Of a stretch of DNA of 64,000 nucleotides, positions 11,309-53,400 are shown one piece after another. The DNA lies in contig JAQMWT010000196.1 of the NCBI GenBank assembly GCA_029834535.1, positions 1 through 64,000 on the forward strand, given 5' to 3'. Position numbers and translations under genes: made by a program. How positions within the stretch are numbered: the first letter of the stretch is position 1; every line of letters starts with the position of its first letter. Origin of the DNA: Chrysophaeum taylorii. Lineage: Eukaryota; Sar; Pelagophyceae; Pelagomonadales; Pelagomonadaceae. Under the pieces are notes generated by a model. It searched no databases. It had not been told where the DNA came from and was given only the letters and a program-made list of their open reading frames with translations.

Positions 11309-11890
11309 TCGAACATACTGAAAAACTGAACTGGCGACGACGGTTTCGCCAACGCATCAATCAGCCGAAGAGCTTTGGTCAAAACCTTCTCTTCGAGAGG
11401 GCTAGTTTTCAACCAAAGGATAATTTACGAAACCCTCAAGCGCCTCAAACTACTAAACTACTACTGCACAGACCACCCCAGTGCATGGGGCGTAGGCTAA
11501 TCCCAGCGCTGTGGCGCGTTGGATCTGAGTCAAGGGGCCGAGAGCCGAGGGGTGCTGACAGGGGCATCGGGGGAGAGTTGACGCCTGTCGCCTGCGACGC
11601 GGAAATCGCGACTTGACCAAGAACCATTTCGTCGTTAACGTTTCCTTCAGCGTTCCCCGGCCATAACCCGTCTCACTGCGAACGTTCCGGCTTCCAACCA
11701 AGGGGATATCAATGCCCGGGGTGGAAATAAGGCCTCCCTCTCTCTCCCTTTCCCTATGTTTAGCGCTGAATGATGTGCGGACGACGAAGTGGGGCCAGGG
11801 GGCAACACTCTGCGTGAGACGGCGGCCGATACCGTCGTGGAAGCTTGCCCGACAATCTGATTTAGCGGGAACAGAATCGGGAACTTCGAC
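11309..11890. other. No gene supported
   Basis: Open frames exist on both strands but none resembles a known domain. The stretch joins the hAT target site to a copia fragment. Confidence 0.4.
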
Positions 11891-12807: not shown

Positions 12808-13211
12808 TGGAGTGATTTGACCCTCTCCGGGTACATGGTAGAGACCGCGTGCGGTCTTAGGCGCGTACAGACCACTCCGCTTGCCACATGCTACTACACA
12901 AGGTAGGGATTTAGGCCCTAACTCCATAAGGACATGAGGTCCCATAGAAGCGTTTACATTGACAACGAGGAACTAAGTATCTGCTAATAAAGCAGAGAAC
13001 ACCGTACCCAACGGTACGCACCTGGAGGACTTCTCCTTGTTGGAAGAGGGCTTCAGACTCAGAGCTTCATAGTCATGAAATATATATTTGCGGAAGGGTA
13101 AGGAAGGTGAGGGAAAGCCGTATTACGGAGAGAAAACCCTCAAGTAGAAGGAGTGTGAAAGAAGGTGCGAGGAACTCCAGTGTCGTACACATTATAGTGT
13201 AGCTCTCTGGA
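12808..13211 (-). repeat. Copia LTR-like repeat, copy L1
   Basis: About 400 bp, same family as 22814-23223, 25498-25897, 53401-53780 and the fragments at 23790-23955 and 49440-52045. It starts (minus strand) TCCAGAGAGCTAC and ends GGTCAAATCACTCCA. Conserved internal blocks include GAGGGTTTTCTCTCCG, CCTCCAGGTGCGTACCG and the GACCGCACGCGGTC palindrome. It belongs to the same subfamily as 25498-25897 and differs clearly from 22814-23223. It lies where the 3' LTR of element B would be expected but is not a close match to that element's 5' LTR. Confidence 0.75.
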
Positions 13212-13441
13212 CCCCCTCAACGTGTGGGAAAGGCTTTATGCGTTCCAGACGTTCTTGAGTGTGAAGCTTGTGTACGATACATGAAAGCATCGAGTAACTT
13301 AAACATAAAACAACAACATAAACGATGAGGCTACATTACAATTAACATTAGGAGGCGGAAGTTGGACGTGTTGTTACATCATGTAACGAATCAGCATCCA
13401 CAATGTCTGATGTATGGTCCAATTCATCATCATTATTGTCT
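13212..13441. other. 3' region of copia element B
   Basis: AT-rich spacer between the end of the ORF3 frame and LTR-like copy L1. No further feature seen. Confidence 0.4.
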
Positions 13442-15339: not shown

Positions 15340-15413
15340 CTTTTGTAAACATAATATGAAGATGTTTTGTCAGCGAGCTGCAATAATATGGCAATATTCG
15401 TTTCTGTATGGGC

Positions 15414-15434
15414 TAGTTTAATGTCATTGCGGAC
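15414..15434 (-). promoter_or_regulatory. 21-bp box between pol and ORF3 (element B)
   Basis: The + strand reads TAGTTTAATGTCATTGCGGA followed by C. It is one of six copies in the window of a box with consensus TAGTTTAAYGNCNTTNCGRW. Three copies lie between the RNase H stop and the ORF3 start (2663-2683, 15414-15434, 56648-56668). The role is unknown; see findings. Confidence 0.5.
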
Positions 15435-15453
15435 ATAACGATAAGGGTAATGA

Positions 15454-17742: not shown

Positions 17743-19356
17743 ATTCGAGATAGTTTTCCTTAGGATAGTGATGAGTGAATCTTGTATGCGACATCCCCTT
17801 CAACTCGTGGCACGACCTCGCACAAAACCGCGCGCAGTGGCGGTCCGCCATCAACGCCATTTCATCCCTCGCCTCTACCCCAACGGTGTGATTTTGCTCT
17901 GTGATCCTGGACCGGCTCCTGCCGGCCCTGCCTGGCTCCCATGCCCGGGAGAGGTCCGAAGTTAGTTAGTTAGTTAGTTAGTTAGTTAGAATCTTGTAGA
18001 ACTTGTGAACTGCGAGAAACAAGGGTGCTAATTCAGCGACGTGTGTCCACGAGTTCATATGCATGATGATAGGCTTGACAGAGCCAAATAAAGCCTGTGG
18101 CTGGTTCCAAAACGACTGTTTTCTCGTTCGACTTATCGTGCGATGGGAGAGTGTAAGTTTCGCCAAAAGCACCGACAGTTGCTTTATAATTGGAGGTAGA
18201 ATTGGTGACGGTTATGTCGCCACCAATGTGTCTTCCACCTGTGGTGTAGTAGATGGGTGTTGTTGAGGACTTGTTAAGGAATAACCTGTGAGAAGCTTGG
18301 TTAGTTTCGAAAATAGTTAGGCAAAAAGACACGTGTTTCGTGGTTGAGTTAGGCAACAAACGTCCAAAGACGCTACATAGTAAAACAAATGCCTTGATCT
18401 CAACTGGGGATGTCACGTTAGCCAGTGGCTGTCTGGAATTCGTATAAAACCCAAACGAAAGTAAGAGCAAGATCCATGTCGTCTTGGGCCGGCTGTTCCA
18501 AAGTTTTCTGGGAACATAGCCGTAGGAAAAGCATGGTCAGAGTTTCCAACTCAACCATAGTCATGCGAACAGATCCAGTGCAATTATAAAAACTGAAAGT
18601 TTTAGGATTTGTTACATGACATACGTCAGGGAAAACCTGAGTGCATTTCTCATCGACGAGCAATTTTTGATTGATGGCATTGCTGTTATCAGATATGTCA
18701 ACAAACGAAGTGAGACGTTTGTTGGGCCAAGTGAGCACATCCAGAGGCCCGGAGTGATATCCGCGTGCCACGAGTATCCATCTTTCCGGGATTGATAATG
18801 TCCGCACACATAGCGTGGAATCGGTCGCGTACATCCACTGAGTAGTACATTGACGAGAAGAGAAGATTACCACTCTGGTATGGTCCTCATATGAAGCAGA
18901 ATGAGGTGGAGTCATTTCCATCAAAAGGACTAAAGGCTTGATGAATTCCAGGATGCTTAGAACGCTGGGAAATAACGAATCGTTCGTATCTCGCTTGAAC
19001 GTCGAGCTGGCTCTCCCGTTGATGACATTACGATTCGTGCAAGGAGAAGTCAATTCCACAATATCGGTGTAAAACTTTGAACGTTCCTGCTCAGAAGCTC
19101 GATGTACGTACGTGAGGAATCTAGGAAGAGATGAAAATACCTCTATGGAATTGCCAAAGCGAGAAAGTAGCATATGCGTCACGTCGTCATCACTCTCAAC
19201 GATAACCTTGACGTTAACGTTGATTTGCAAGTCATTAGTAGCACATGCCAAGCACGCAGGAGTAGACAACCCAGCACAGAGAAGAGTCACTGTAGGAGCA
19301 CGAGAACTAGACTCTGAAGTGACAGTACGTAAAAGACGAGGATTCAGTTTTCGTCA
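17640..19356 (-). pseudogene. C5-cytosine DNA methyltransferase-like domain inside copia pol (element B)
   Basis: Minus-strand reading from about 19353. Motif I is TVTLLCAGLSTPACL, motif II is KVIVESDDDVTHML, motif IV is FYTDIVELTSPCTNRN with the catalytic Cys codon at 19039-19041, and motif VI is IKPLVLLMEMTPP with the Glu codon at 18916-18918. Motif VIII is IPERWILVARGYHSG. After a frameshift near 18430 comes the part with YYTTGGRHIGGDITV and AFGETYTL. After the LINE insert comes FALSEMHLAQSRHLGYI. All these align with the copy at 26402-28414. It is in the same frame as the domain encoded upstream (19357-19941), separated only by TGA at 19354-19356. Motifs IX and X are not clear here and may be deleted. 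An active ancestor would have methylated cytosine in DNA. This copy is dead. Confidence 0.8.
17787..17988 (+). mobile_element. 5'-truncated LINE insertion (TTAG-tailed family) with 10-bp TSD
   Basis: A 202-bp plus-strand insert lies within the methyltransferase region of element B. It is flanked by GAATCTTGTA at 17777-17786 and 17989-17998. It encodes the last residues of a LINE protein (the PFNSWHDLAQ block, then RAQW/R), stops at TGTGTGA, has a 3' UTR, and ends in seven TTAG-type repeats. The same 3' end occurs at 50763-51261 and 51281-51642. The tail and variable 5' truncation are typical of target-primed reverse transcription. Confidence 0.88.
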
Positions 19357-20260
19357 TAGAGGTGGTGGTAACCTCTTACGGATATGCAAGTGCTGATCAT
19401 ACATACTTTGCAAGATGGCTTTGTACCATGGAACATAAATTACTGTCTCAATGAGTTTAGCGTATGGTGCTTGCATCTCTCTCTGCTCATCATAGAGACA
19501 AAGCGTATATTGGCGAGATCGCAACTCTAGCTTTCGTGCTTTGGCCTGTTGCATTGAATAAGCTGGCAAAGTAGGACGCATGTTCTCAAGTCTGAAAAGT
19601 GGAATGCGTACATATTCATCCAGATCACTGGTGACAGTTGACCCGCCTTTGTATTCCCGGTGATGGAGATGGAAAACCAATTTAACCTCAGTCCATTGCG
19701 GTAAACTGATGATGTGCAGGTCGGGATCAAGATTCTGGTTCTTCTTAGGGAGAAACAGAGCAATGTCCAATTTTACATACCCACCTTCAGGATGCTTAGG
19801 AAGAGCCGGTATCACATACGAGTGATCATAGCATGTGTTGTCCTGTGAACATGGGTAGCAGTCTGTATAGAAGGCGATAGCGAGTGATGATGTGCTGGTC
19901 GGGTACAAGATTATGGTTCTTCCTAGGGAGAAACAGCGCAATGTCCAATTTTACATATCCACCTTCAGGATGCTTAGGAAGAGCCGGTATCACAATACGA
20001 GTGATCATAGCATGTGTTATCCTGTGAACATGAGTGGCAGTCTGTATAGAAGGCGATAGCGAGTCAGGGAGCTTCACTATATGAAGCGGATCCGCATAAC
20101 GACGAAAGTTCACCACATGATGCGACGCGCCGCTATCAGCATCCCCGGGAGTACAGATAGAAGGCAGGTTGTATTCATTGTAAAGCTGCATGATGAGAGA
20201 ACAACACGCATATGTGTGACTTCTGACCAAAAACATATTTGATAAGAAAGAGTTGTCCAT
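19357..20260 (-). pseudogene. Copia protease and adjoining unknown domain (element B), split by a tandem duplication
   Basis: The frame at 19826-20260 carries the retroviral-type aspartic protease signature DSGASHHVVNFRRYADPLHI followed by QTATHVHRITHAMITRIV. Protease is followed by a domain of unknown identity (19357-19941: HPEGGYVKLDIALFLP, then EYVRIPLFRLENMRPTLPAY, then a helical KARKLELRSRQYTLCLYDEQ). A similar domain occurs at 25905-26390 in element C, in the same place between protease and methyltransferase. A 178-bp direct tandem duplication (19708-19885 and 19886-20064) shifts the frame between protease and this domain. The catalytic DSG is intact. Confidence 0.75.
19708..20064. repeat. 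178-bp tandem duplication in the protease/unknown-domain region
   Basis: GATGATGTGCAGGTCGGG at 19708 is matched by GATGATGTGCTGGTCGGG at 19886, and similarity continues through the whole 178-bp unit, ending with GTCTGTATAGAAGGCGATAG in both. Since 178 is not a multiple of three it breaks the polyprotein frame. Several base differences show the duplication is not brand new. Confidence 0.85.
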
Positions 20261-20499
20261 TCACGGAGGGTGTAACGACCAGAAGTAAAGCCATTGTTAA
20301 TAGGCAGCTTGGGGATAGACTTAGGTCGAGCAGTATCATTCTCCTCATCATCATCTTGGCTCTCTTCCTGTTTCTCCTCAGTCTTAGAAGGAGTATCTTG
20401 ACAGTTGCGGCGAATTACAGCTTGCGATGTTTTAGCGTTGATATGTTGTAGAAGAGGCTGAGGGAGCTTATCAACATCATCATCGCTGACGGTTAAGAA

Positions 20500-22290
20500 T
20501 GCTTTAAAAAGTCTTTCCGTATCAGCTCTCCCCCTCTACTCTGCATCACTGGGGGTCGCTGTAGGAACAGAGGCATTTGGATATGAGTCCGAAGTAGATC
20601 TAGATGAATTAAAAAGAAGAGCCTCCATAGCATCGGACATTGAATCGACTGTTGACATATATTGATGCATGTTAGCAACCTCATCATTGTCAAGAGTTTG
20701 GGTGAATGCATAGGAGACAGTTGCCCACAAAGTATCCATTAGAGTTTTCATCTCATCCTGCACAGCATTTACCTCTGCGGGTGGATTTGGATTAGCCTCC
20801 TGAAGTTTGCGAAACAGATGCTTTTATCGCTCAGTCTGATAGGAAGCACGATCCATTAGGGACATGTTAGAGCGAGGGCGGCGATCAGTTGTCCGAGGGT
20901 ATAAAGGACGATCATAGCTGTTGCCTCCGCCCGTATTACAGTTGCTGGGCGGGCGATAATAAGAAGTATCGCGAGGCGAGGTGGATGATGCTTTATCTTT
21001 CGTGTTTCGTAGCGCGCATTGAAGCCATACCAGCAGCAGTAGCTAGGAGGGAATAAGTACCCTCCAAACTTTGTTGGGGCTCTTGGATGGTGTCCATTGG
21101 AAGGACCTTAGGAGGATTTGACGAAGTGGTGCCATGGACTTATGGAGTCCATGAAGAAGGCGTATCCAAGCGGCGTTGTGACGTGTACTTCGTCTCATTA
21201 CATTTCCGAAGTAAATACTCCATCCAGTAAAGGACGCACGTCGTTTGGATCCGTGAGTTTTCCAGCATCATTATTAGCTTAATTGCTGCCAGAAGAACGT
21301 GTCTCAAATAGCTTACACCATTCGAGCTTCGACTGCGAGTACCTATCATGATCGCTTGGGTTACAGTAAATACGGTATAGCAATTCATGTGCCTTTTGAG
21401 CAATTATAGTATTTGAGAACTGAATATGGGCTTCATCAATATTAAGTCGATTGGCCCGTGTCTGTAAGGCAAGAAGTTGCTCCACGAATACATGCGCATA
21501 CCTAATTTAAATTAAGCGACATGCGGTTAAATTGTATTTTAAGCTCAGACACATCGGCCGAGCTAACTGACTCGTAATAGAAAAGAGCCAGAAGCCTGAT
21601 AGCCCGGGTTTTGTAAGGGTGTGCATTCATAGAATACAGTTGTTTCAGCTCTGCCCATATGGCAAGAGCTGGCTTGTCAACTCCTTCCAAGTTAAAGAAG
21701 GTGAACAAGAAACCAGCGTAAGTCTCAGTGTACTTAATGGTCTGCTTTAGTGAGACCAGAGAAGTTGGTATCAGGTAATGCCTGATCGTAAACAATTCGT
21801 TTGGTGAATTGTTGGTCCAGGTTGCTTATAGTGCCTTTAACCTGCGTTTCAATTTCAGGGCGCGTGAGATTATACTCGTCGCGAAAAAATAGGCGGGTGG
21901 GTAAGTTTCGCTCGTCATTATCAAGGTTGCGATAACCTGGAACGTACTGCCATGACTGTAAATGCTCTGGAAGAGCCGATATGTCAGGGAGACGTAGATC
22001 AACGACTGGTTGATTCTGGCAATTGCGAATTACCTCCTCAATAGTGGAATCAAAAAACGTATTATAATCGGGAGCAGCCCGGATAAAGGCTACCCATGAA
22101 TCATAGTTTAAAATAGCATCAGCATGCGCGAATGTTAAATGCCTGCGAAGCATATCAAACTGAAGACTCACTTTAGTGGAGTTGTCTTGAAATCGCAATC
22201 CATCATTTAACTTGTCACCAAGTTGTTGCTCAAGTTTGAGGACGTCAGTGGTCGTGATTGGCTTGGATTTTTAACTTGACATGCTTGAAG
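20500..22290 (-). pseudogene. Copia gag of element B (degenerate)
   Basis: Minus-strand frames at 21734-22198, 21502-21795, 21279-21485 and 20536-20763 follow one another between the primer-binding site and the protease, where gag belongs. Features are consistent with a copia capsid: NYDSWVAFIRAA, then WQYVPGYRNLDNDERNLPTR, then KPALAIWAELKQLYSMNAH (the W...L...Y pattern of UBN2/retrotran_gag proteins), then LKIQFNRMSLNLN. The frame can be extended upstream of 22198 to about 22280. I do not see a clean CCHC zinc knuckle. Frameshifts near 21750, 21490 and 21280 disrupt it. Confidence 0.65.
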
Positions 22291-22795
22291 CATGAATTTG
22301 GGCTTGATTTGTGAGGTGACCTGAGACGGTTGGTTAGGGAAAGGATTCTTAAACAATAACACTACATATGAAAAGAAGGGTTTCGCATGTGCGAGTTTGT
22401 ATGTACAGTACGCGGTGAGCTTGATGGCTCATAAAAAACGTGAAGTTATGTACAAGACCAAACAGTTCACAATACCAGCTAAACAGTGTGACCTGAGACT
22501 GAAAAGAAATACATATTTTCTTGTCAGACGATCCTTGGTTGGGGTCAAAAGGTAAAGACCTTCGCTTGTCTTCCGCGTACAAGCGCGGGAAATGTTAGTT
22601 TTATTGTATCATGCGAGTGCACGTGTCCAGTGAACGACCCTACTCGTTCACTTGCCAATCACTGGTGGGAACGCACCGTCGCATGGAAAATATGTACAGT
22701 AGACCAGCGCCAACACTTGTCGTTTTGTACTTGCAACCAGGCGTGTAACTGATTACATCGTTAAGTGCACAAAACAATTGGACTAACACACCTGC

Positions 22796-22813
22796 GCGTC
22801 TGGGCCCATAACC
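22796..22813 (-). promoter_or_regulatory. Primer-binding site for half-tRNA(iMet)
   Basis: On the minus strand, GGTTATGGGCCCAGACGC directly follows the LTR end (TCTCCA). It is complementary to the anticodon-arm region of eukaryotic initiator tRNA-Met (CTGGGCCCATAACC). That is the internal half-tRNA primer used by Drosophila copia and related elements. This fixes 22814-23223 as the 5' LTR and the element as minus-strand copia. Confidence 0.75.
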
Positions 22814-23223
22814 TGGAGAGATTTGACCCTCTCCGGGTATATGGTAGAGGCCGCGTGCGGTCTTAGGTGTGACTAGACCATCCCGCATGTCACGTGCTAC
22901 TACGCAAGTAGGGACTACGTTCCTCACTTCCCAGGGACAATAGATCCCGGAGAAGCTTTCACAACGACAACGAGGAACAGAGCTACGGCTAGATAAACAG
23001 TGAACTCTGGACCGTACGGCACGCAAGGGCGGATTTCTCCTAGTGTCGGATGAAAGCACTAGACGGAACTCATTGTCAAGATAGTAGAAAGCGGAAGGGA
23101 GAAAGGGCAAGAATGATGGAAAGCCGTGGTTGACTCGGAGAGAAACCCTCATAAGAAAGAAGTAAGGAGTATGGCGTGTTAGGATACCAGAGAGTCATGT
23201 ACGATATGGGTCAACTCCCTGGA
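22814..23223 (-). repeat. 5' LTR of copia element B (copy L2)
   Basis: 410 bp. In the element's direction it starts TCCAGGGAGTTGACCC and ends GGGTCAAATCTCTCCA. The ends form an imperfect 16-bp inverted repeat (12 of 16 match). It contains GAGGGTTTCTCTCCGAG, a CACTAGG block and the GACCGCACGCGGCC palindrome. It is a different subfamily from L1 and L3 but matches the fragments at 49562-51700. The primer-binding site follows immediately. Confidence 0.8.
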
Positions 23224-25227: not shown

Positions 25228-25482
25228 GTGATTGTGTCCCCAAAATTACTGGCTCAACCTACTCTTACGCTGCCAGTGTCTTCAACTAATGTTTATTCTG
25301 AGAACGCCTTCCTTTCTAAGTATATGCGGGATCACAAGCTTCCTCCACACTTTAAGCTGACCTATTTCGATACACGCGCCTCGATCTCGTTTATTACTAC
25401 GTTTGACTACGCTTTTAACTTGCATATCGTCCCTGTCGACACTCGCATTGCGCCCGTGGTCCAAACTGCTACTGGTCAGTAG
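25228..25482 (+). pseudogene. Copia protease remnant (element C)
   Basis: The plus-strand frame contains LTYFDTRASISFITTFDYAF, then NLHIVPVDTRIAPVVQTATG. This aligns with the protease segment of element B around DSGASHHVVNFRRYADPLHI and QTATH. The catalytic DSG has become DTR, so this copy is inactive. It is cut by the LTR-like repeat at 25498, beyond which the reading resumes (IMLVKISIS, PLPSHPEIGYVKI). Confidence 0.65.
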
Positions 25483-25497
25483 CAAGTCTCTCATGTC

Positions 25498-25897
25498 TCC
25501 AGAGAGCTACAATATTATGTGTGCGACACTGGAACATTTTCACACCTATCTCTACACGAGGGTTTTCTCTCCGTAGTACGGCTTTCCCTCTTTCTTCCTC
25601 TTCCCTTACCCTTCCGCCCCTTTTCTTTCACGACTATGAAGAACCCAGTCTGAAGCTCTTTTCCAACATGGAGTAGGCCTCCAGGTGCGTACCGTCGGGT
25701 ACGGGGTTTTCTGTTTAATTAACAGAGACTTCGTTCCCCGTTGTCAGTGTAAACGCTTCTATGGGACCTAATGTCCTTAAGGAGTTAGGGCCTAAATCCC
25801 TACCTTGTGTAGTAGCATGTGAAAAGCGGAATGGTCTGTACACGCCTAAGACTGCACGCAGTCTCTACCATGTGCCCGGAGAGGGTCAAATCTCTCA
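25498..25897 (+). repeat. Copia LTR-like repeat, copy L3 (inserted within element C)
   Basis: 400 bp, plus orientation, from TCCAGAGAGCTAC to GGTCAAATCTCTCA, closely related to L1 (12808-13211) and L6 (53401-53780). It interrupts element C between protease and the following domain, so it postdates that element. No primer-binding site follows it and I could not define a target duplication. Confidence 0.8.
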
Positions 25898-25904
25898 AAT
25901 ATCA

Positions 25905-26390
25905 TGCTCGTTAAGATCTCCATCTCCCCGCTTCCATCACACCCCGAGATCGGATACGTGAAGATTCACTATACCCTCTTTCTAAAACCAGTGCATGGTC
26001 GTCAGTTGTTCATTGTCCGCGCCCGAGTGGAAAAGTTCGCCTGACAATTACCCTCAACAGCAGCGAGCGTCCCAACTCCTCTTTCGTCACAAGTGAACGT
26101 GACAAAGATGTCAAGATCCCAATTCACTTTGTGGACCATGACTTATTACCAGCCTTGCTGTGCAAACCGTATACTCTAGATCGTGACCGTAACATGCAAC
26201 TTCGCTCATTGGCATCTCCTTTAAAGCGGTACCACAAAAAGCGCGAACTTCTGGCTCATTACACATACCAGATGCGGAAATTACGAGAGCGTCCTTGGCT
26301 TCGCCCTCTCTTACTTAACAAGCGCCAGAATAACGAATTCGTGACTGAATTCCCGACCAGTATTCCTTTCTGTGGAAACAGGTCAGTAAC
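25905..26390 (+). pseudogene. Unknown domain between protease and methyltransferase (element C)
   Basis: The plus-strand segments HPEIGYVKIHYTLFLKP, DVKIPIHFVDHDLLPALLCK, and RNMQLRSLASPLKRYHKKRE/LLAHYTYQMRKLRERPWLRP correspond in order to the region at 19357-19941 in element B. A frameshift near 26120 and another near 26380 break it. The domain is beta-rich, then strongly basic and helical. The family is not recognised. Confidence 0.55.
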
Positions 26391-26481
26391 GTAAGCCCAA
26401 TGTCATGTTCCTATGTTCTGGTCTGTCGACTCCCGCATTTCTTTCACCATCCCCTCATGACTTAGTCTTGAACATCAGTGT

Positions 26482-26633
26482 TATAAAGGAGATGCAGGTT
26501 TCCTTGAAGGTGTCGTACGGCTCGTCGTTGTTTTTCCCCGGCACGACGCGCAAGTCGGAGTAGCAGGTGGGCCCGCGGACGACGGTCAGGAGGACGCGCA
26601 TGTGGAAGGCCTCCTGGTTCTTGGGAGACACGG
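26482..26633 (-). mobile_element. Helitron helicase-protein fragment inserted in the methyltransferase
   Basis: A GC-rich 150-bp block interrupts element C between motifs I and II; element B has no such block. On the minus strand it reads NQEAFHMRVLLTVVRGPTCY then SDLRVVPGKN and YDTFKETC. This follows the pattern common in Helitron-encoded Pif1-type proteins (an FxxRxLLxxVRGPTSFxDLRTVxG...YxTFxEAC pattern). It is too short to carry helicase motifs and no Helitron ends were found. I infer a captured or exchanged fragment. Confidence 0.6.
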
Positions 26634-27153
26634 CTTACATGTGTGCCACGGCATCCGTCGAGATTGTCGAGTCGGATGAAACTCTAGTGAGAATGCTGCG
26701 CCAACGTTTTCCGAATGTATTAGTCTTTAAATCAATGCCGTCCTTCATAAATCATTTACGCTCGATTACTGAGCCCGAACGGCGAGAATTCTACTGCGAC
26801 ACCGTGGAGGTCACCACTCCCTGTACGAATCGCAACCTCATCAAAAGCACCCAGGCTACTGAATTGTCGAGTTTACTTGATGATGCACTCTTTGACAGTA
26901 TTCTTTCTGTTATCAAGCTACTCAAGCCCTTGGTCCTGCATGATGAGATGACTCCGCCACATAAAGGTGTTTACAAGGACCATATGTCCGTGGCCAACTT
27001 GATCCACTCCACGCTCAAATACTCAGTAGATGTTGTCGACCGGTTTACCACTTATTTCTGCGGAGATTTCCAGGCTCGGGAGAGGTGGATCTGCATCGCA
27101 CGCAGGTGCCATACCGGCAACCTCAACAAGCTCTCCTGGCCAACCCAACATCC

Positions 27154-27276
27154 GACCCCGACTAGGCTCCGCATACCCATCTACGTCCCTCAGGCACATC
27201 CTTCATGTCCCCACACAACGCACCAAATACCTTCAAGCACCCACACGCACCTCCCCCTGTTAGCAGTCGACCTTTA
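27154..27276 (+). mobile_element. 5'-truncated LINE tail (AGTCGAC-tail family) with 12-bp TSD
   Basis: A 123-bp insert is flanked by AACCCAACATCC at 27142-27153 and 27277-27288. It ends with a run of CACACGCAC, CTCCCCCTGTTAGCAGTCGA and CCTTTA, the same 3' end seen at 49609-50533, 52250-52484, 58079-58148 and (minus) 33477-34245. Leaving it out brings the methyltransferase frame on both sides back into register, which confirms the insertion boundaries. Confidence 0.88.
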
Positions 27277-28414
27277 AACCCAACATCCAATGCAGCTCCA
27301 AGATACTGCAGATAGTCTTTCGGCCATATTGAAACAACTATGGTTGTCAAAAAATCTCGCAAAGGACTGCGTGCGAGTCTATACAGATCCACCCGTTGCC
27401 TCTACACCTAAGAGCTTTCCAGCCTTCTCTCGCACGGGCTCCACTCGGATGAGTATGCATGAACTAGAGACCTTAAGCCTTTTGTTCCTCGGACTGGATT
27501 CCCAACAAGCTATGAAGCAAGCCACTCACGACTCACACCCTGAATGCACTTACCATCATATCCGGCTCTTACGTGACTCAACATCATCTCTGCCGAATGC
27601 TGCCAACCCTTTTCGCTTGAAAGCGTTCACATTGCTTTAAACGTTGTCTCTAGGAATCTGCTTGATATTCCAACACCCGTGTCCTACTATATCACGATTT
27701 CGAAACTAACCAACCCTCTCAGAGGTTATTCCTTATTCCTTACAAATCAGCCTCCAAACAAAACATGTACTTCATCACAGGAGGTAAACATATTAATGGT
27801 AATCTCCTCGTCGTCAATAGGTCTACCGAATATAAGACGTATATAGACGCCTTTGGCACGACCTACACCCTGTCCTCGTTTGCCAATTCCGAGGACAAAT
27901 CGATTAGGTAGAGCCGTTCACTGGCTACCTTTGGTTGGTACAGGCGTACCCCCAAGTCCATGCAACTCGTGAAAGCCGCCCTGCCCTTAACAACCTCATG
28001 AGCAGATGTGATCTCGTCATTCCTCGTTGCCTTTCTTACGATGCATTGACTGATGCCACACACACACACGGTGTGCTACAAGGACAAGCACTTTGCGTTA
28101 GAGGACTACCGACTCTCGCATTCTCGCTACATTGGATACTTACTGAATAGCGGCCGTCGCTTAGGCTCCAAGATCCACTCTATGAGAGTTCCTCTTCCAC
28201 CACTCGCGGGTTTGCGAACATGGTACTGTTGGATCCTCGCAACAACAAGCTGCGCTATGCGACGCGACCTGAGCTCACTCGAGCCAACAATTTCACCCGC
28301 GACCAAGAGTCCTTCTTACTCTCCTTTAAAGCTGATTTGTGCTGCGACATTGTTAGCAATGCCCTGCCGGCGGGTACGTGCCATTTACTGTACACCCATT
28401 TGTGTCGCACGCAT

Positions 28415-29135
28415 TGTCTCTGACATGAAAATTCTCATGTTATCGCCAAACTTCGAGCATGACGAAGCGATGCGTCGCAACAACTATGAGTCTACCTTCG
28501 TCACGCTCGAGTTACCTCGGCCGTGTGATGACTATGATATCATTATTCAGGCCGAAACTTTCATGAGCAGAATCGCAAATCGCAATATCTGGCCGATTTC
28601 AATACGTCGACTAAAATTGCCTCTCTCGAAGAAGCACTGGCTTTCACACCAACCGATGTCAATGATTCTTCTGAACAAGATGACACGCCCCCTCTAGATC
28701 CGCGCACCGAGTTAAAGTTCAGTACGCGGCGGCTAAAACACACACCCGTCAAGTCTGTGCCGCGCGAAGTCTATCCTCATGGTACGGTCAAACATCTCAA
28801 CGCCAAGGAACGTGCTAACCGGTTCCACCGTAAGCACCATTGTCCGGATAGTGTGGCAACAAAGGCGGTCGAGATTCTTTCTCGCCCTGGGTTTGCAGCT
28901 TCAGAGATTGAATGAATACAGAGATTTTTGCACAGACTGTATTCTTCACGACAAAAAAAAACACCGTCATTCTTCATTTCAACCCGACAAAGCCTAATTT
29001 CGAACAAACTCACCGTCCTGGTGAAGTGTGGGCTTGTGGTGGCGGCTATGTTTCTGTCTGATCTAAATGGGGTGGCTTCACTCGTTTGATTGTGCTCAAG
29101 GAACTCCTGTCAAAATTCCTTCTCGTGTATTCTAG
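28415..29135 (+). pseudogene. Integrase remnant of copia element C, downstream of the methyltransferase
   Basis: After methyltransferase motif X come an acidic linker (DVNDSSEQDDTPPLDPR, about 28660-28700) and then an HHCC-type integrase zinc finger. It reads NRFHRKHHCPDSVATKAVEI, then after a frameshift near 28910 NEYRDFCTDCILHDKKKHRH. The catalytic core begins with HRPGEVWACGGGYVSV, a stop, and SKWGGFTRLIVLK, comparable to the GELW-x-D-x(n)-GG...LLFVDD start of copia integrases. The first acidic residue appears as Gly. The sequence ends abruptly at about 29135. It shows that the pol order in this lineage was protease, unknown domain, methyltransferase, integrase. Confidence 0.6.
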
Positions 29136-29139
29136 ATGC

Positions 29140-29635
29140 ACAACCCACAGCACCATTTCCATCGCAAGGGAGACGGGCCACGTCGACTTAGACTTCGACT
29201 ACCTGTCGTTCGAGCACAGCGCGCTTGCTCTGCAAGACGACAATGTTTCGTGCCTGTTGATGTAGCACGACGCAAACATCTACCTGGCCAGTAATAATGG
29301 ATTTCCACATGTTCTCCACGTCGCGAACTATGATAGCTATATGACCGTCGTGCCATTATGGACAGACTTATGCACGTCGCATGCCTGTTACTCAACCATG
29401 GTGCAGACTTCAACGAGATCTAGGCTGATGGGACGTCGCAACTTCAGCCTGAAAAGCCGAGCCTCAACGGCCACGTTGACGTCGTGCGTTTGCTTCACGA
29501 ACATGGCGTGGATGTGAATCAGGACAGGAACCACTGGTCGACACCGATAGCTGCTACCTGCGCAGCTGGGCATATAGGGGCAGTGCAGCATCTGCTCGCA
29601 TTTCCCCAGCGTTTGGTTTCCAAGAGCTCGTAGCA
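29140..29635 (+). pseudogene. Ankyrin-repeat pseudogene fragment
   Basis: The plus-strand reading gives ankyrin-type units in broken frames: ISIARETGHVDLDFDYLSFE, then HVACLLLNHGADFNEI (stop), then LNGHVDVVRLLHEHGVDVNQ, and STPIAATCAAGHIGAVQHLL. The GHVDVVRLL-x-x-HGVDVN pattern is characteristic. Stops and frameshifts show it is dead. It lies directly between the end of element C and the 3' side of IFT122. Confidence 0.65.
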
Positions 29636-29979
29636 TACAACTCAGAAACCACTTTGGCTTACCACAAAGTTAAATATATAGGATCGAGTTGATCAAATTT
29701 GTTGGCGTGGGGTCAGACTCGAGCTTGCACGAATGACCTCGGAAACGTGACTGACGCCGGTGTCTTGAAAAGTCTCGATCGAACCTTACTGCCCGTCTCT
29801 CCAGCTGCGACGCCCGGGTTGCTTCGGGTCCGCCGTTTGAGTCCCTGCACCGAAGTCGACGTCAAAACCGCCTAGCTAACTAGAATCGCGACTAACTAGA
29901 ATCGGGTTTTCGAGAACCGCGGATGTCGATCTTCATAATAGAAGAGCAACCGTACAGAGAAGCACAAGGCGAGAATTTA
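29636..29979. other. 3' flank of IFT122
   Basis: No coding sequence is seen. It contains the IFT122 3' untranslated region (minus strand) and an AACTAGAATCG direct repeat (29880-29905). Confidence 0.4.
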
Positions 29980-32900
29980 TCAACAGGGCCCGGTGTCGCC
30001 GAGGTCCTTGAGTCGTGAGTAGGGGCAGTGTCCGTCGCGGAGGACGGCGAACTCGAAGTCTTCTTCGTGGAAGAAGCGGTGCTGGGAGATGGCGAGGTGG
30101 ACATCGGGAAGCGCGGACTTGTAGAAGGTGGCGCGCATGCCTGGGTGTCGCGGGGCGCAGACATAGACTTCCTCGCGGCGCAAGGAAGCAAGGGTGTCGG
30201 CGTCAACAGTGACAGAAACGTAGGCGTCGTCCTGGGTCGAGAGCGTGCGGTTGATGGCCTTAGTGAAGAGGTCGCCGTCGTCATCGTCACCGATTTGCTC
30301 GGTCGGCGGCTCGCGGATCAGGCTCAGAGCCTCGTCGTCGGTGATGGGGGGCGCCGGAAGGAACTCGATGAGCGGGAGAATGTCAAAGGTGAGGAAGGAT
30401 CGGACGAAGGGATGGCCGCACGAGGCGCAGACATCGCAGTTGTGGGAGCGGGCCGTCGCCGGATTGAGGAGAGCATTGGCCGCACCGCATCTGTAGCATA
30501 CGGGGAGAAGATCGGGGGAATCGCGGACGGGTTTGGCGTGAACAGTGACCATGTCGACCTCGAGCGAGTCGACCCAGGCCGCGTCGACCTTGGTGTGCGC
30601 AAGCTTGTCGTAAGCAAACCGCGCCAGCTTGTAAGCGCCGAGCGTCTTGGCCTGCTTGGCGAGCGTGTACAAGATCTTAACGCGCGAGATGCCCAGTGGG
30701 GCTTCGTTCGTGCCTAGTGTGTTGACGAGAAATCGCGCAGCGTTAAACAACACCTCGGGCTGCACGGGCGTGAACGGTAAGAAGAAGCTCTCGAGGAAAG
30801 AGTAAGCGTAGTAGGCGTCGGCTTTTTCGAGGCACGACTGGTAAAATGGGAGAGCGTCATGCACCGCGTCGGGGCCGCCAGCCTCGAAGGCGCTTCGGAG
30901 GCTCTCGGTGGCAAGGCGCCAGTAGTAATACGAGGCATCTTTGAACCTCGACTCGACAACCGCGTTAAATGTGAGCTGTTCCATCATGCGCGAGGCCTGG
31001 TCGGGCCTCCCGGCCTTGCGATAAGCGTCGAGCGCCTCGTCGAACTGGTCGTGGAGCGCGAGGTATTCGGCGTATGGCAGGTAGAGCTTTTCGGTGTTTT
31101 TTCGCTCACCCGCGAGCGCGATCGCCTCGGCCCACTGCTGCTTGCGCACGTGCAGCTCGATCAGCATGTCGACATCGTCGAGCTTGGCGTACACCTCGCG
31201 CGCGAGCTCATCCTCTCCGGCGTCGAGAAAGTACGTCGCGCACTTGCGAAGAACGTCGCCCGTGACGGTGCGAGCGATCGACGCGAGCTGCTTGACCCAT
31301 CCCGGGTGTCGACGCTCGCCTAGAAGCTGGACAGCGCGTGCGGGGTCCACAGACACGTACATCTCGGCCGCCGCGTTCCAATCTTCAATCTCCTCGGCCC
31401 ACTCGGCCTGGCGTCGCACGAGCTCGCGGCTATCGACGTCCGAGGACGCAGCAAACATCTTGGCCTCTTCCCACTGGCGGAGGTCAGCGAAGAGGTCGAT
31501 CGCGAGCTGGACTTTGCCCGCCCTTGAAAAGACCTTTGCGGCTTCCTGGTATTGACCGGCGTAGGCAAGCAGCTCGCCCTGCAAAACATCGGCGTCTTTA
31601 TCGTCTTTCAAGACTTCGAGCAGCCGGAGGTCGTGGACGCGCGAATAGGCTGCTCGCGCCGTCTCGAGATTCATCGCACGCGCCGCAGCGATTGCGAGTC
31701 GTCGCCAGTCGGCTTCCGTCACTCCCAAGCATGCGAGCTTGTGTGCGGTCTCGAAGTCCTTGTCGGCGATGTGTTGGCTTAGGGCTTGCGATTGAGGCAA
31801 GTCGACCGCTTCGACGCGAGTGCCGTCGACCACAAACACCTTGGAGCCCGCCGAACCCACGACGCGGCCCTTGATTTTGTGTTGGAGAGCGGGTTTATCG
31901 ATGAATCGCACGGCGACCTTGTCCGAAAATTGCGAGTAGCAAACGCAGTCGTCGAGGTGCGCGTTGAACGCCGCGCCCGTCACGTCCTCTTCGACCATTA
32001 CGACCTTGCTGCCCTCGTAAATCTGCAAAATCTGGCTCGTCGATAGCATCAAAAGCCGCTTGCGATCAGGCGAGAGCGAAGCGACCACGATTCCCGACGA
32101 GCTGGGGGGTACGAGTTCAACGGGAAACGCGTTGTCGAGATACAGCTTGAGGACCGCGCCGTTCTCGAGGCCGACAATCAACCCTTCGCGACCGGCAGGT
32201 CCGCCGTCGACGACGATCGATGTGATCGCGACGTCGAGAATCCACTGGCGCACGAGCTGCTGGTCCTGGTACAGCAAGAGCTTGGCTTCCGTACAAAGCA
32301 ACACGTGGTGCGCCGTAATGCCCACGAGTCTTTGGGACGACACTCCAGTGAGGCCATGCTCCTTTCTCAGGCGGTAGTGCAAATCGCCCTCGTCGCACTC
32401 GTAGACGTTGACGCGGTCTGGCAACTGAATCGCGAGGCGGTCCATATACAACGCAATATTCACGACGCGCTCGCGACTCTTGATACGGACGCGTTTCTCG
32501 GCTTGCTGCACGATGACGTCCGTCATTTTTTCGGTAAACGCAAAGCGGTCTGACGCCAACCCATAAACGGCCTCAAATTCGAGGTGCCAAAGCGAAATCG
32601 CGCCGCCATAGGACCCGACCCCCACCGAGTTATTCCGGTGCGACACCACCGAAAACACCCACTCAGCGTCCTCGCAGATAGTCGCCAATCGCACACCTTC
32701 GCGCGTATAGAGCGCGGCCGTGCGATCCGAGCCGCCTACGACCAAATGCGGTCCGCACGGGCACAACGACACGGGATAGCTCCCAATTTTCCGCTCCTTG
32801 ATAAGCACGCCGTTGTGGTAGAAGGCCAGCGTTTCGTCCCAGGCTCCCACGACCAGCGTGTCATCGCACCACGCGACGCACCACACGGGACCGTTCCGCT

Positions 32901-33417
32901 CGAACCGCGAGTGCTCGGCCGCCTTCTTGTCCCTGATCTGGACCGTGCCCGACGCCATCCCGAGCGCCAGCAAATCGCCCCACGTGCAGCTTAGGATTTT
33001 GCTCGAAATCTTGTGTTTCGTGACGCTCTTCTGCTCCTTACTCCACAGCCCGAAGTCGCTCGCTGTGCAACTCGTGAGTTGTTCAGATTTCGAGTAGCAA
33101 ACGCATTGGATCGAGTCGTTGTGAGTGAACTTGAGGATGCCCTCCCCCTTGTCGTTCCAGATTATGACGGTACGGTCGGCGCCGCCCGACGCGAACCGAG
33201 ACCCGCTCGGCGCGTACGCCAGAGCGTACACGGTGTCTTTGTGCCCGCGCAGCCGATGCCGCAAGTCGCCGTCGATTGTTGCGTACACGAGCACCAGCGA
33301 CGACACGGCCACCACAACCTCCTTCCCGCTCGGCGCGTACGCCATTGAGTATACCGTCGCCTTGACATTCCCCTTTGGCGGCAACCCCGGGTCCTGCCAT
33401 ACCTGCTTCGCCTCCAT
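29980..33417 (-). CDS. IFT122: Intraflagellar transport protein IFT122 homologue
   Basis: A single uninterrupted 1,145-codon frame from ATG at 33417. Residues about 1-300 form the first WD40 propeller: SMAYAPSGKEVVVAVSSLVL, YALAYAPSGSRFASGGADRT and VIIWN, DTLVVGAWDETLAFY. A second propeller follows to about residue 560. Then comes a long TPR/alpha-solenoid region (AYAGQYQEAAKVFSRAGKVQ, DQFDEALDAYRKAGRPDQAS and RMMEQL). Near residue 1000 is the zinc-binding C-terminal segment CYRCGAANALLN followed by CDVCASCGHPF, then SFLTFDILPLIEFLP. IFT122 belongs to the IFT-A complex, which drives retrograde ciliary transport and import of membrane proteins into cilia. The length is slightly below that of animal homologues. 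The organism is therefore ciliated at some stage. The upstream gene at 35921 is divergently oriented, 2.5 kb away. Confidence 0.95.
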   Translation of the reverse strand: MEAKQVWQDPGLPPKGNVKATVYSMAYAPSGKEVVVAVSSLVLVYATIDGDLRHRLRGHKDTVYALAYAPSGSRFASGGADRTVIIWNDKGEGILKFTHNDSIQCVCYSKSEQLTSCTASDFGLWSKEQKSVTKHKISSKILSCTWGDLLALGMASGTVQIRDKKAAEHSRFERNGPVWCVAWCDDTLVVGAWDETLAFYHNGVLIKERKIGSYPVSLCPCGPHLVVGGSDRTAALYTREGVRLATICEDAEWVFSVVSHRNNSVGVGSYGGAISLWHLEFEAVYGLASDRFAFTEKMTDVIVQQAEKRVRIKSRERVVNIALYMDRLAIQLPDRVNVYECDEGDLHYRLRKEHGLTGVSSQRLVGITAHHVLLCTEAKLLLYQDQQLVRQWILDVAITSIVVDGGPAGREGLIVGLENGAVLKLYLDNAFPVELVPPSSSGIVVASLSPDRKRLLMLSTSQILQIYEGSKVVMVEEDVTGAAFNAHLDDCVCYSQFSDKVAVRFIDKPALQHKIKGRVVGSAGSKVFVVDGTRVEAVDLPQSQALSQHIADKDFETAHKLACLGVTEADWRRLAIAAARAMNLETARAAYSRVHDLRLLEVLKDDKDADVLQGELLAYAGQYQEAAKVFSRAGKVQLAIDLFADLRQWEEAKMFAASSDVDSRELVRRQAEWAEEIEDWNAAAEMYVSVDPARAVQLLGERRHPGWVKQLASIARTVTGDVLRKCATYFLDAGEDELAREVYAKLDDVDMLIELHVRKQQWAEAIALAGERKNTEKLYLPYAEYLALHDQFDEALDAYRKAGRPDQASRMMEQLTFNAVVESRFKDASYYYWRLATESLRSAFEAGGPDAVHDALPFYQSCLEKADAYYAYSFLESFFLPFTPVQPEVLFNAARFLVNTLGTNEAPLGISRVKILYTLAKQAKTLGAYKLARFAYDKLAHTKVDAAWVDSLEVDMVTVHAKPVRDSPDLLPVCYRCGAANALLNPATARSHNCDVCASCGHPFVRSFLTFDILPLIEFLPAPPITDDEALSLIREPPTEQIGDDDDGDLFTKAINRTLSTQDDAYVSVTVDADTLASLRREEVYVCAPRHPGMRATFYKSALPDVHLAISQHRFFHEEDFEFAVLRDGHCPYSRLKDLGDTGPC

Positions 33418-33476
33418 CTTTTTCGGCCGGCGTTGTTTCGCGACGGCCTTCGAAGGTGGTTTTAAAGGTTCAAAAA

Positions 33477-34245
33477 TGGTCGACTACTAAGAGGGTGCGT
33501 GTGGGGGTAAAGGTTTAGGAGTAAACTCAAGGGAATGAGCGTACACTGTGGGCGCCGAATAAACGCATCTTAGATTGGCTTGAAGGTTTAGGGTATTTAA
33601 AGGTCGACTGCTTAGAGGGTGGGTGCAGTTGAATTAATAGGGGACTATAAAGGGGTGAGGGTTTCTTTTAGGTCGGGGTGTGTGCGTGCGGGGGCTTGAG
33701 GGCTTCGGTGCGCTGTGTGGGGACATGCGGGATGCGCCTAGAAGGCGAAAGTGAGTATCACGTTCAAGTGTGGGGGGAAAAGAAGTGGGGACTGCCTGAA
33801 CGGCGGGGTTTTCCAAGGCCACACTGCTAGGGCGGGGGTGCGAGCAGGGGTCCAGGCGCATTTGGGTTGTGTGAAGACGCGAGAGGTGCCGGAAATGCGG
33901 AGATATCCCGTTCAGGGGTTCGGAGGGTTGTGTGAAGACGGGAGGGAAGCCTTAAAGGCGGGTTCATCGCCGAGCCACGGGGAAGGCGAAGAGAGGGCGG
34001 GCCCCGCCCGTAGGTCACACGCATGCTGCCGCCGGACGTATGTGCGGCGAAGTGCGACGTCCTGCTGGGCACTGGCAGCCTGGGTGGGGCTACCCTTGGT
34101 GGCGACATGGCGGAGGGCGGTGAGGGCGTAGCGCGTTCGGCCCAAGACGCTGGCGATTTCCCACTCGCGGTGGATGCGGCGAACTTGGGCCGCCTTGGAC
34201 TCTGTGACGTTGGCAGAGCCGCTTCCAACGACCGGTGGGTCATCA
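33477..34245 (-). mobile_element. LINE-type 3' ends and C-terminal coding fragment (AGTCGAC-tail family)
   Basis: Minus strand. Two tail copies are present. One at about 33477-33512 (TAGTAGTCGACCA) follows a short repeat resembling 2690. The other at about 33594-33640 (CTAAGCAGTCGACCTTTAAA) ends a longer truncated element. Between 34240 and 33930 the coding part reads NVTESKAAQVRRIHREWEIA, then SVLGRTRYALTALRHVATKG, AQQDVALRRTYVRRQH. It matches the element at 49609-50533. The insertion lies in the IFT122/giant-gene intergenic region. Confidence 0.65.
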
Positions 34246-35780: not shown

Positions 35781-35920
35781 GCATAATTACGATTGTACAA
35801 CGCGTGATGAGAGTAATAATAGTACAAATATACCACCCCCGCCGAAATGGAAATTTTGCCAGAGCGCGTCGTTGTGGCAAGGTGACGGAGTAACAGAAAG
35901 GCGGCTCAAGAAACATCAAA
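34246..35920. other. Intergenic region upstream of the giant gene, with two microsatellites
   Basis: No coding region is supported. An (AAAC)n tract lies at about 35568-35625 and a (GAT)n tract of about 13 units at 35740-35781. Both lie within 350 bp of the ATG of the giant gene, inside its probable promoter or 5' untranslated region. Confidence 0.5.
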
Positions 35921-38900
35921 ATGGGAGGAGGAGCTTTGGACGAGGTCCTGGGGGAGTACGCTCGCGGCGGGAAGATAACGGCGGGGGACGTGCGGTGGGT
36001 GATGTGGGACCTCGGGAGGCACTTGCTCGCGGAGGAGGAGGCCGAGGCGCTCGTGGAGCTCGACGGCACGGGAGCTGGGGTGATCGACGTTGAGACGATG
36101 GTCGCATGGATCTCAAGGCGGGAGGAGGCGTGGGCCCGGTGGTGCGGCGAGGACTCGACGGTGCGGCTCGTGGTTCGGGCCGCGCGCGTGTTTCGGGAGT
36201 GCGACGAGGCGATGGACGGCGAGATCTCGGCGCGGGAGTTCACGCGCGTGCACCAACGGCTCGCGGAGGTCGGACTTGTACAGCAGGGGTTCCTGACGTG
36301 TCTGAAGGAGGTCGACCGCGAAGGGGACGGAGTGATCGAGTTCAACGAGTTCGCCGCCTGGATCGTGCGGCGGTCTCGGCAGCACGAGGAGGCCCCGCCG
36401 TCGCCGCTGCCCCTCGCGGGACCGCGGACTCCTCCTCCGCGGTCGAGTCCTTGGCTCGAGGACGCGGCGGGTTTGGGGGAGTGTCCGCGGGACGTGGCGG
36501 GGCTGCAGGAGGCCGTGCGGCTCGCGGCGGCGGCCGCCGCGGCGGCGACCGAGGAGCTGGCCGAGCTGGACCGCGAGTACGGGTCGGCGGCGCGCGACGC
36601 CGACGTCGCGCTCGCGGCTTGCGGGGACGCGGACGCGGCGACGTCGCGGCGGGAGGGCGAGGTGGTGCGGGCCGAGGCACGGCTCGCCGAGGCGCGGGAC
36701 GAAATCGAGGCCGCGACGGGGTCGGTCGAGTCGGCGCGGAAGATCACGGCGGCGACGAGCCCAGGGGCGTCGGCGGGCGGGCTGTCGCTGTTCTACTCGC
36801 ACACGCCGGTGGCCGTGAGCCAGGCAGTGATCGAGGCGGCCGACGAGCTGCGGTTGCTTCAGGACGAGGCGAACGACCACAAGATCTGCGAGGCGTGCGA
36901 CGAGGCTCTCGCCGAGGGCCACGTGTTCGGGGCCGTCGGGAGCCTGGATCTGTCGACGTGTTCGGCGCGCGGGCTCGCGGGCGCGCTCGAGCTCGCGGCA
37001 CGGCTGGGGGGTGCGAAGACGCCTCGGGCGGCGTGGCTCGTCGCCGCCGCGGCCGAGGCCAAGACCGTGCGCGAGGCGCTCGTGGCGGGTCCCACGACCT
37101 GGGGGACGCGCGCCCTCGACCCCCTTCGGCTGAGGGACGCCGCGGCCCGGCTCGACGCCGAAGCGATTCGTCTGCGCGGAGACGGCGACCTCGCGCCGTG
37201 GTACGCGTCGACGGGCATCGCGAAGGAGCTCGGGCTCGTCGCGGCGACGGCCGAGGCGCGGGCGGCGGCGAGTTCGCTGCGCGCGGCCGTGGTGGCGCAG
37301 CCGGTGACGGGGTCGCCGGGGGCTCTCGACGTGCGGTCGGCGCGCGCGGGGCTCGCGGCGCTCGAGGACGCGCTCGGCGCGAGCGACGCGCTTCGCGAGC
37401 CGACGCCTCACGTCTCGGCGCTGGCCGACGCCGCGCGCGCCGCGCTCCGGCTCCGCGAGGCGGCGTGCGCGGCCGTCGACGCGGACGCCCAGCAGCAGCA
37501 CGACGACAGCGCGGCCCTCGCGCGGTCCGACTCGGTCGGCTCGCAGCTCTCGTCGCTCTCGGTCCAGTCGGCGCCGGCGCGGCACCTCGCGGCGGCGGCG
37601 GCGGCGCACCGGGCAGCAGCAGCATTGAGGACCCCAGGCTTAGACGAGGGCGGGCCGCTCTTCGAGGAACTCGAGGACGACGGGTCGACGGTCGCGCCGC
37701 TCGACGACGGCGCGGGCTCGGTCGCGCCGCGGCGGCTCGGGCGCGCGTACAAGGGTGGCGTCGACAAGGGCGCGGCGCTCTCGGCACTCTCGGCGGCCGT
37801 CGCCGTCTTGGCCTCGCTCCTCGACGCGCCGCTCCACGGCGGGGGCGACGACGACGGCGCGGGCGACGCCGAGGACTCGACGACGGCCTCGCTCCTCGGT
37901 CAGGAGAAGGCGCTCGTCGAGGCCGACTTGCACGATCGGATTATCGCGCGCGACGTGCCGCTCGCGCTCGCCGACGGGCGGACGGCCGGGCGGCCGGGGC
38001 CGGGGCTCCGCGTCGCGGCGAACGACGCGACCCTGGCGGCGCTCCGCGCGGCCACGGCCCACGCGCGCGAGTGGGCGGTGCGGTGCGGCACGTCGCGCGC
38101 CAAGGAGCTCCTCGAGCGGGCCGAACTGCTGCTCGCGTGTCGCGACGCCGCGAGCGAGGAGGACTGGGAGGCCGTCGACGCGGCGCTGAGCGGGGTCGCG
38201 ACCTTTACGGTCTCCCATTCTCCGTCGTCGTCCTCCTCGTCGCCGCGGCACGCGGCCTCCAAGCTCCAGCACGCCAAGGCCCTCGCGGCCGCGGGGGCCG
38301 AGGTCGAGCTGCTGCGGCTCGAGGTGAACGATCGGAAGATGCGTTGCGCGGCGTACGATGCGTTGGCGACGGGGCGGGTCGTGGGCGTCGCTGGGGCGAT
38401 CGACGTCGACACGAGCCCGTGCTCGCCGGCGGACCTCAACGCGGCCCACGTCTTCGCGACCGAGGAGCTCGGCGGGCCGCAGACGGCCGAGGCGCGGCGC
38501 GTCTACGCGACGGTCGGAATCGTCGCGCGCGCGCGGAGCGCCTTGGCCGAGTGCGAGGGGTACTTTTGCGACGAGTGGGACTCGAACGAGGCTCTCTTTC
38601 CCGAGACCCTCCGGCCCTGCTACGACGCGATCGTCGCCGTCTCGCGCGAGCGCCACCCGACGCAGCCCGAGCTCGCGGCCGCGCTTCTCGACAAAGAGGG
38701 CGGCGCCGAGCTCGCGATCGTGCTGAGGACGGCCGAGGCGCGGCGCGTCGCCAAGGCGTTGCGCGCGGCCCTCTCGAGCGACGAGAGCGTCGCCAAGGGG
38801 CCCCTCGACGCCCTCGACCTCGCGGGCGCGCGCGCGTCGATCGAGGCGATCGAGACGGCCCTCGCCGACTTCGACCGCCTCGAGGTCCCGACCCCGCACA

Positions 38901-43854: not shown

Positions 43855-43885
<31 letters not shown>

Positions 43886-46014: not shown

Positions 46015-46070
46015 GAAAGAACACCATTCTTTCTTTCTTTCTTTCTTTAGAGAGAGAGAGAGAGAGAGTA
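46014..46070 (+). other. Hairpin and microsatellites just after the giant gene stop
   Basis: AGAAAGAA (46014-46021), loop CACCA, TTCTTTCT (46027-46034) form an 8-bp stem beginning at the last base of the stop codon. (TTCT)n and (GA)n tracts follow. It is probably in the 3' untranslated region; the function is unknown. Confidence 0.4.
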
Positions 46071-53395: not shown

Positions 53396-53400
53396 GTAAC

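Follow-up and report, generated by a model that had tools for sequence, protein, structure and literature searches.

The 64,000-nucleotide stretch of Chrysophaeum taylorii DNA analysed here (contig JAQMWT010000196.1, positions 1 to 64,000, forward strand; hereafter the window) carries a broken C5-cytosine methyltransferase (DNMT) relic at 26351-28604 on the plus strand, with a copia protease relic on its 5' side and an integrase (IN) relic on its 3' side. The original prediction, made from the letters of the window, had listed DNMT motifs in this region, and three-frame reading of 26402-28950 found them all on the plus strand and in order, in the frame starting at 26402. We take FLCSGLSTPAF to be motif I, VEIVESDE motif II, TTPC (Cys codon 26822-26824) motif IV, HDEMTPPH (Glu codon 26945-26947) motif VI, GDFQARERWICIARR motif VIII, RYATRPELTRANNF (ca. 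28253-28294) motif IX and SNALP (28355-28369) motif X. Stop codons, frameshifts (from ca. 27640 to 28150) and an inserted stretch of ca. 180 bases at 26483-26662 disrupt the relic. Taken alone, its open piece matches nothing in Pfam at E up to 1; its identity follows from relatives elsewhere in the genome. The ordered motifs and the tblastn alignments to these relatives (E 1.4e-124 for the best set) place it far beyond chance. Its predicted location between protease (25228) and integrase remnants was likewise confirmed on both sides by tblastn to genome relatives, and homology to them stops at 29154. Just past this end, at 29400-29640 (+), lies a stretch that looks by eye like ankyrin repeats.

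This relic is of the type that we call B, and its protease is split by a solo long terminal repeat (LTR) of an A-type element of the same family (Table 1). The solo LTR is 96.5-97.5% identical to three A-type 5' LTRs, it has 40 other genome places among the matches listed (39 at 96-98% identity and a shorter one at 87%), and its 5-base flanks ATGTC and ATATC are alike at 4 of 5 positions by eye; its insertion into the protease is recent. A second, less broken DNMT copy lies on the minus strand (19353-17988) within an LTR element at 12808-23151, which is old since its LTRs are 73% alike. The open piece of this copy (18421-19353) comprises motifs I to VI and a portion of motif VIII, and the minus-strand DNMT shares 62-71% identity with the other 126 scored genome matches; a deletion has removed motifs IX-X together with the integrase core (residues 496-1240 of L040, an A-type relative, are missing). 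The protease region of the element contains a 178-base tandem duplication at 19707-20064. Its third open reading frame (ORF3) has no Pfam family above cutoff and is only weakly similar to the other downstream ORF of the window, at 1257-2600 (E 3e-5, 23%). Other pol fragments on the minus strand are of B type at 3369-5064 (70-74% to the reverse transcriptase (RT) of L039, a B-type relative) and of A type at 11876-12824 (ca. 49-59% to L040 in the main pieces). Both DNMT copies are old relics of a large Copia LTR retrotransposon family of C. taylorii, for which the window is a graveyard.

Table 1. Parts of the two DNMT-bearing Copia copies in the window
Feature	Position	Strand	Evidence
A-type element, 3' LTR	12808-13142	-	73% direct repeat with 5' LTR
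A-type element, ORF3 (env position)	13843-15369	-	84 genome matches including itself; fixed spacing to RT and DNMT
A-type element, RT and RNase H	15457-17649	-	RVT_2 7.1e-33; 91-95% to L040 over 15937-17649
A-type element, DNMT	17663-19353	-	tblastn 65 and 62% to L040, two long pieces
A-type element, protease region with tandem duplication	19468-21012	-	tblastn 27-44% to L039 frame; repeats
A-type element, gag	21288-22258	-	tblastn 32-50%, three pieces, to L039 gag frame
A-type element, primer binding site (PBS) GGTTATGGGCCCAG, immediately past 5' LTR	22800-22813	-	sequence; genome-wide count
A-type element, 5' LTR	22814-23151	-	73% direct repeat with 12808-13142
B-type protease relic, first part, active-site region YFDTRASISF	25228-25497	+	tblastn 44% to L039 frame; translation
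Solo LTR of A-type DNMT element, splitting the B-type protease relic	25498-25898	+	genome matches; alignment with LTR pairs
B-type protease relic, second part	25899-26256	+	tblastn (25895-26256) 48-49% to L039 frame
DNMT relic, motif I	26351-26482	+	frame reading; tblastn
DNMT relic, motifs II, IV, VI, VIII	26663-27637	+	52% to L039 (tblastn); frame reading
DNMT relic, frameshifted VIII-IX interval, motifs IX and X (28253-28369)	27699-28604	+	frame reading; tblastn
Integrase relic, N-terminal HHCC region	28661-28909	+	tblastn; translation
Integrase relic, catalytic core start	28975-29154	+	68% to L039 (tblastn)

Genome searches revealed at least ca. 350 scored places with a DNMT, which fall into three subfamilies; this minimum comes from scored lists in which a few places are possibly counted twice owing to duplicate-looking contigs. 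Subfamily A comprises at least 127 scored places of 1016 candidates (searched with the minus-strand window piece, itself included) and subfamily B at least 150 of 1182 (searched with the plus-strand piece, itself included), and the two lists do not overlap. Subfamily C adds 73 further distinct places, none of which overlaps with any of 44 A/B places chosen from contigs bearing C places. In each of the contig pairs C10/C297 and C25/C521, the matches on the two contigs coincide in position or almost so, and these contigs are probably duplicated or allelic. A search of the 70.8-Mb assembly with the Pfam profile PF00145 gave 57 matches, all above cutoff; beyond two host-like genes (L009 and L010, see below), 36 of the remaining 55 are retrotransposon DNMTs of subfamily C, as confirmed for 18 of 18 that were fetched and assigned for the rest by overlap with, or a distance of at most 400 bases from, a subfamily C match, and 19 are not placed.

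The intact copies that the original prediction proposed to look for do exist, with the DNMT sharing an open frame with integrase and RT. The C-type copy L022 is a single open frame of 1952 residues that runs from an aspartic-protease-like site through DNMT (PF00145, E 1.1e-7) and integrase (rve, 0.006, weak and below cutoff) to RT (RVT_2, 1.6e-38). In the B-type copy L039, DNMT, integrase and RT share one frame of 1691 residues with the protease in the preceding frame, and the A-type copy L040 joins the same three domains in 1464 residues.

The linkage of the DNMT to other element parts holds across the genome. Of 150 scored RVT_2 matches (of 1670 candidates), 63 have a listed A or B DNMT upstream of them at 3-6 kb and in the same orientation (the count covers DNMTs among the matches listed, so the other 87 RTs are not thereby DNMT-free). 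The median distances are 4.27 kb for A and 4.14 kb for B, with no case on the wrong side or on the opposite strand. ORF3 lies downstream of the RT in 20 pairs, with 17 distances of 1.77-1.87 kb (controls 0 and 0; 56 of the 150 RTs given), and downstream of the A-type DNMT in 21 pairs, with 20 distances of 6.0-6.9 kb (controls 0 and 1). The LTR matches listed form 13 pairs in which an A DNMT is downstream, at 3.6-4.0 kb (controls 0 and 0), and 5 in which it is upstream, at 7.2-11.7 kb (controls 0 and 1). Three LTR-DNMT-LTR elements of 11.5, 12.9 and 12.1 kb emerge. The PBS GGTTATGGGCCCAG occurs at 549 genome sites compared to 0 for a reversed control. Among the 100 PBS sites listed, 5 are next to a listed LTR, all beginning 9 bases after the LTR query ends; the PBS stands 3.0-5.2 kb ahead of an A DNMT in 16 pairs (controls 1 and 1) and 2.8-4.8 kb ahead of a B DNMT in 17 (controls 0 and 0; 26 of the 150 B places given). 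The wrong-side and opposite-strand controls rule out a chance neighbourhood of DNMT and element parts.

With RVT_2 in the window element and L022, integrase upstream of RT in L022 (below cutoff), L039 and L040 (by reading), and an LTR pair with the PBS immediately past the 5' LTR in the window element and in three elements elsewhere, these elements are Ty1/Copia LTR retrotransposons, and the A type has the anatomy LTR - PBS - gag - protease (PR) - DNMT - IN - RT - ORF3 - LTR. Drosophila copia has the same order of PR, IN, RT and RNase H and an internal initiator-tRNA-Met primer site, but it is smaller and is not known to have a DNMT or a third ORF. The PBS of the C. taylorii elements presumably pairs with the anticodon region of initiator tRNA-Met, a type of primer also used by Drosophila copia.

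Several observations speak to the age and maintenance of the domain. The ratio of nonsynonymous to synonymous substitution rates (dN/dS) of the DNMT, estimated from copies with open frames only (3 for A, 3 for B and 5 for C), is 0.06-0.08 in A, 0.15-0.24 in B and 0.12-0.54 in C, and the DNMT is under purifying selection. In three elements the two LTRs are 97.2-98.7% identical to each other, which points to recent movement of the family. A and B share 47% identity in DNMT, 58% in IN and 61% in RT, and both are far more distant from C (24% in IN and 29-37% in RT); BLASTP aligns the B and C DNMTs over 87 columns only (26%, E 7e-4) and finds nothing significant between A and C (E 1.4). This parallel divergence of DNMT, IN and RT is compatible with one old capture.

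The host is indeed a chlorophyll a/c alga, as the original prediction had supposed: C. taylorii, a marine alga of golden-brown colour, is a pelagophyte, and a light-harvesting gene lies in the window. Its only DNMTs found apart from the retrotransposon copies are L009, a host-like gene of 360 residues with many named relatives among tRNA (cytosine38) methyltransferases (that is, DNMT2), and L010, a host-like and DNMT5-like protein with an SNF2 domain; this count comes from a six-frame genome search that can miss intron-split host genes, and it stands beside the 19 unplaced PF00145 matches. It is possible, if on balance doubtful, that the retrotransposons supply the only de novo-type cytosine methyltransferases of C. 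taylorii. If so, mobile elements would seed new DNA methylation that the host merely maintains, and the parasites of this genome would write its epigenome.

Retrotransposon-borne DNMTs are known from long interspersed nuclear elements (LINEs), DIRS and Gypsy elements, and the Copia elements of Symbiodinium are without DNMT (PMC5890265, here and below as far as the covered parts of that paper go). Like our elements, SymbioDIRS-Dnmt3 of Symbiodinium is present in many copies and encodes, as part of its Pol polyprotein, a C5 DNMT with conserved key residues, but it has a tyrosine recombinase and split repeats in place of the RVT_2 RT, retroviral-type integrase and simple LTRs found here; its DNMT is a Dnmt3, whereas the domain described here is referred to C5 DNMTs in general. 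KnitGypsy-Dnmt3 of Klebsormidium nitens also carries its DNMT in the Pol of an LTR retrotransposon and under purifying selection (Ka/Ks below 0.2, compared to dN/dS of 0.06-0.24 in A and B), but as a Ty3/Gypsy element of a streptophyte and not, as here, as a Ty1/Copia element of a stramenopile with the DNMT between PR and IN. SymbioLINE-Dnmt shares with our elements many copies and a DNMT outside the named DNMT families, yet in this LINE the DNMT sits in an ORF upstream of RT and there is no LTR or integrase. Since the C. taylorii element is a Copia by its RVT_2 RT and the carriers published so far are LINE, DIRS and Gypsy elements, its capture of the DNMT was likely independent of theirs. A Copia case is not entirely unheard of, because PMC12344493, in the part covered, mentions in passing DNMT3 in LTR Copia and DIRS elements, citing PMC5890265. 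Gypsy and DIRS carriers are named in the covered part of PMC6338049; the covered parts of a survey of microalgal DNMTs (PMC9998398) contain no retrotransposon-borne DNMT, and the terms "transpos", "retroelement" and "DNMT" are absent from the main text of the genome paper (PMC10366177). Our literature search, with preprints and most subscription papers outside it, returned no pelagophyte DNMT element and no described Copia DNMT element.

Transposons are normally victims of DNA methylation, and it is therefore paradoxical that they carry the enzyme. The further lineage (Copia, in a stramenopile), the same position in pol, the three deeply split subfamilies, the selection and the recent activity together suggest that the trait recurs and benefits the element. 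Being probably independent, this case could reveal what mobile DNA might gain from methylating, and a genome of 70.8 Mb is much more tractable than those of dinoflagellates; the seemingly simple host repertoire of DNMT2 and DNMT5 types makes it directly testable which side initiates methylation.

Taken as a whole, these findings are probably best explained by a Copia family with a Pol-borne DNMT that methylates its own cDNA or the DNA flanking its insertions. The C5-methyltransferase domain in Pol, judged by its motifs, would be catalytic via the PC cysteine and the motif VI glutamate. Its position and the yeast activity published for SymbioDIRS DNMTs, for which CG methylation was shown and self-methylation of cDNA was proposed (PMC5890265, in part), suggest that the protease may free the DNMT within the virus-like particle, where, ahead of integration or during it, the enzyme would methylate de novo the cDNA of the element or the DNA beside the insertion. 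The DNMT5-like enzyme of the host could then keep the mark, which might make new insertions quiet and tolerable or mark them as self.

Other observations weigh against this explanation, beginning with the traces that methylation would leave. Five fetched loci have observed-to-expected CpG ratios of 0.83-1.06, compared to 1.16-1.37 for two of the window's host genes; in six copy pairs, changes at CpG sites are only 1.1-1.7 times as frequent as at the remaining C/G sites. These statistics are at best a weak methylation trace and give no clear support for the effect on silencing that had been suggested originally. LINE and Gypsy DNMTs showed no activity in yeast, which their authors called inconclusive (PMC5890265, in part). 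A weak CpG signal would also fit a domain without a DNA target that methylates the genomic RNA or the tRNA-derived primer, comparable to DNMT2 on tRNA, and aids packaging or priming instead of silencing. RNA methylation is discussed for the LINE DNMT in the covered parts of PMC5890265. The motif set of our domain is that of C5 methyltransferases generally and its core motifs align with those of DNMT2 without special kinship, and we consider this RNA-directed role unlikely. The PBS suggests that the element uses a primer from the anticodon region of a tRNA, presumably initiator tRNA-Met, which speaks for a role on RNA.

The enzymatic identity of the domain is the other point of doubt. By reading, motifs I, IV (PC), VI (Glu), VIII, IX and X are ordered in the window relic, in A/B and in C, and subfamily C scores above the PF00145 cutoff. 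For A and B, membership of the DNMTs would rest on the order of the motifs, on weak matches to the profile and on a fold of low confidence: their copies stay below the cutoff (20.2 bits for the best relative versus 22), 3 of 7 A/B core pieces match PF00145 weakly, and a Pfam scan of six longer A/B pieces and the window pieces gave no DNMT match. The usual F-x-G-x-G is missing from their motif I, and their motif VI has EMT in place of ENV. None of the 17 matches of an A/B profile to the PDB (E up to 10) is a methyltransferase, and the PDB sequence search with the 1952-residue frame of L022 found no match. The AlphaFold model of the A type is poor (predicted local distance difference test (pLDDT) score of 41); in a Foldseek search with it, dehydrogenases tie with DNMTs and one comes out on top, with DNMT3A at rank 24 and many DNMT3A/3B chains among the rows, tied with other proteins. 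The predicted fold of the window piece alone is uninformative (pLDDT 35.5). Full-length hhalign of A to C is collinear, with a low probability (4.7%, E 0.0086); for the core only, the probability is 37% (E 3.5e-4). A protein search with the C-type DNMT found no relative among 7997 scored candidates, and one with the A type found a single relative, P0002, among 5937. This marine protist transcript (MMETSP) encodes 392 residues, matches PF00145 and no other family, pol domains included, and may have been truncated or stem from a domesticated copy.

The divergent motifs I and VI of A and B, their scores below the Pfam cutoff and the size of the domain (ca. 600 residues, with a long part separating motifs VIII and IX) could all be read as marks of a former methyltransferase kept for a non-catalytic role such as nucleic-acid binding or integrase tethering. 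The PC cysteine and the motif VI glutamate are nonetheless kept in both window copies and invariant in the three-sequence alignment A1, and the domain is under purifying selection, so that such a role, too, appears improbable. That the domain is another Rossmann-fold enzyme with motifs merely resembling those of C5 methyltransferases, as the dehydrogenase ties and the PDB results might suggest, is very unlikely: the C-type domain in the same place of pol exceeds the PF00145 cutoff, P0002 matches this family alone, and motifs I, II, IV, VI, VIII, IX and X are in order. A host DNMT gene with retroelements inserted nearby by chance, the outcome against which the original prediction had warned, is refuted with near certainty by the shared open frames (L022 and L039), the fixed DNMT-RT spacing and strand and the hundreds of copies.

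Beyond these elements, the window holds an integrase C-terminal fragment of another element class at 52687-53580 (-) (Integrase_p58_C; SH3_Tf2-1 below cutoff). The plus-strand DNMT relic adjoins an uninterrupted IFT122 gene of 1167 residues at 29983-33483 (-), which suggests a flagellate stage in C. taylorii. An open frame of 3463 residues at 35894-46285 (+) has an EF-hand pair near its start and is otherwise repetitive by eye. Two genes for light-harvesting proteins of 220 residues, at 58254-58916 and 62433-63095 (+), have identical listed translations (Pfam on the first) and lie 4.18 kb apart as a tandem duplication.
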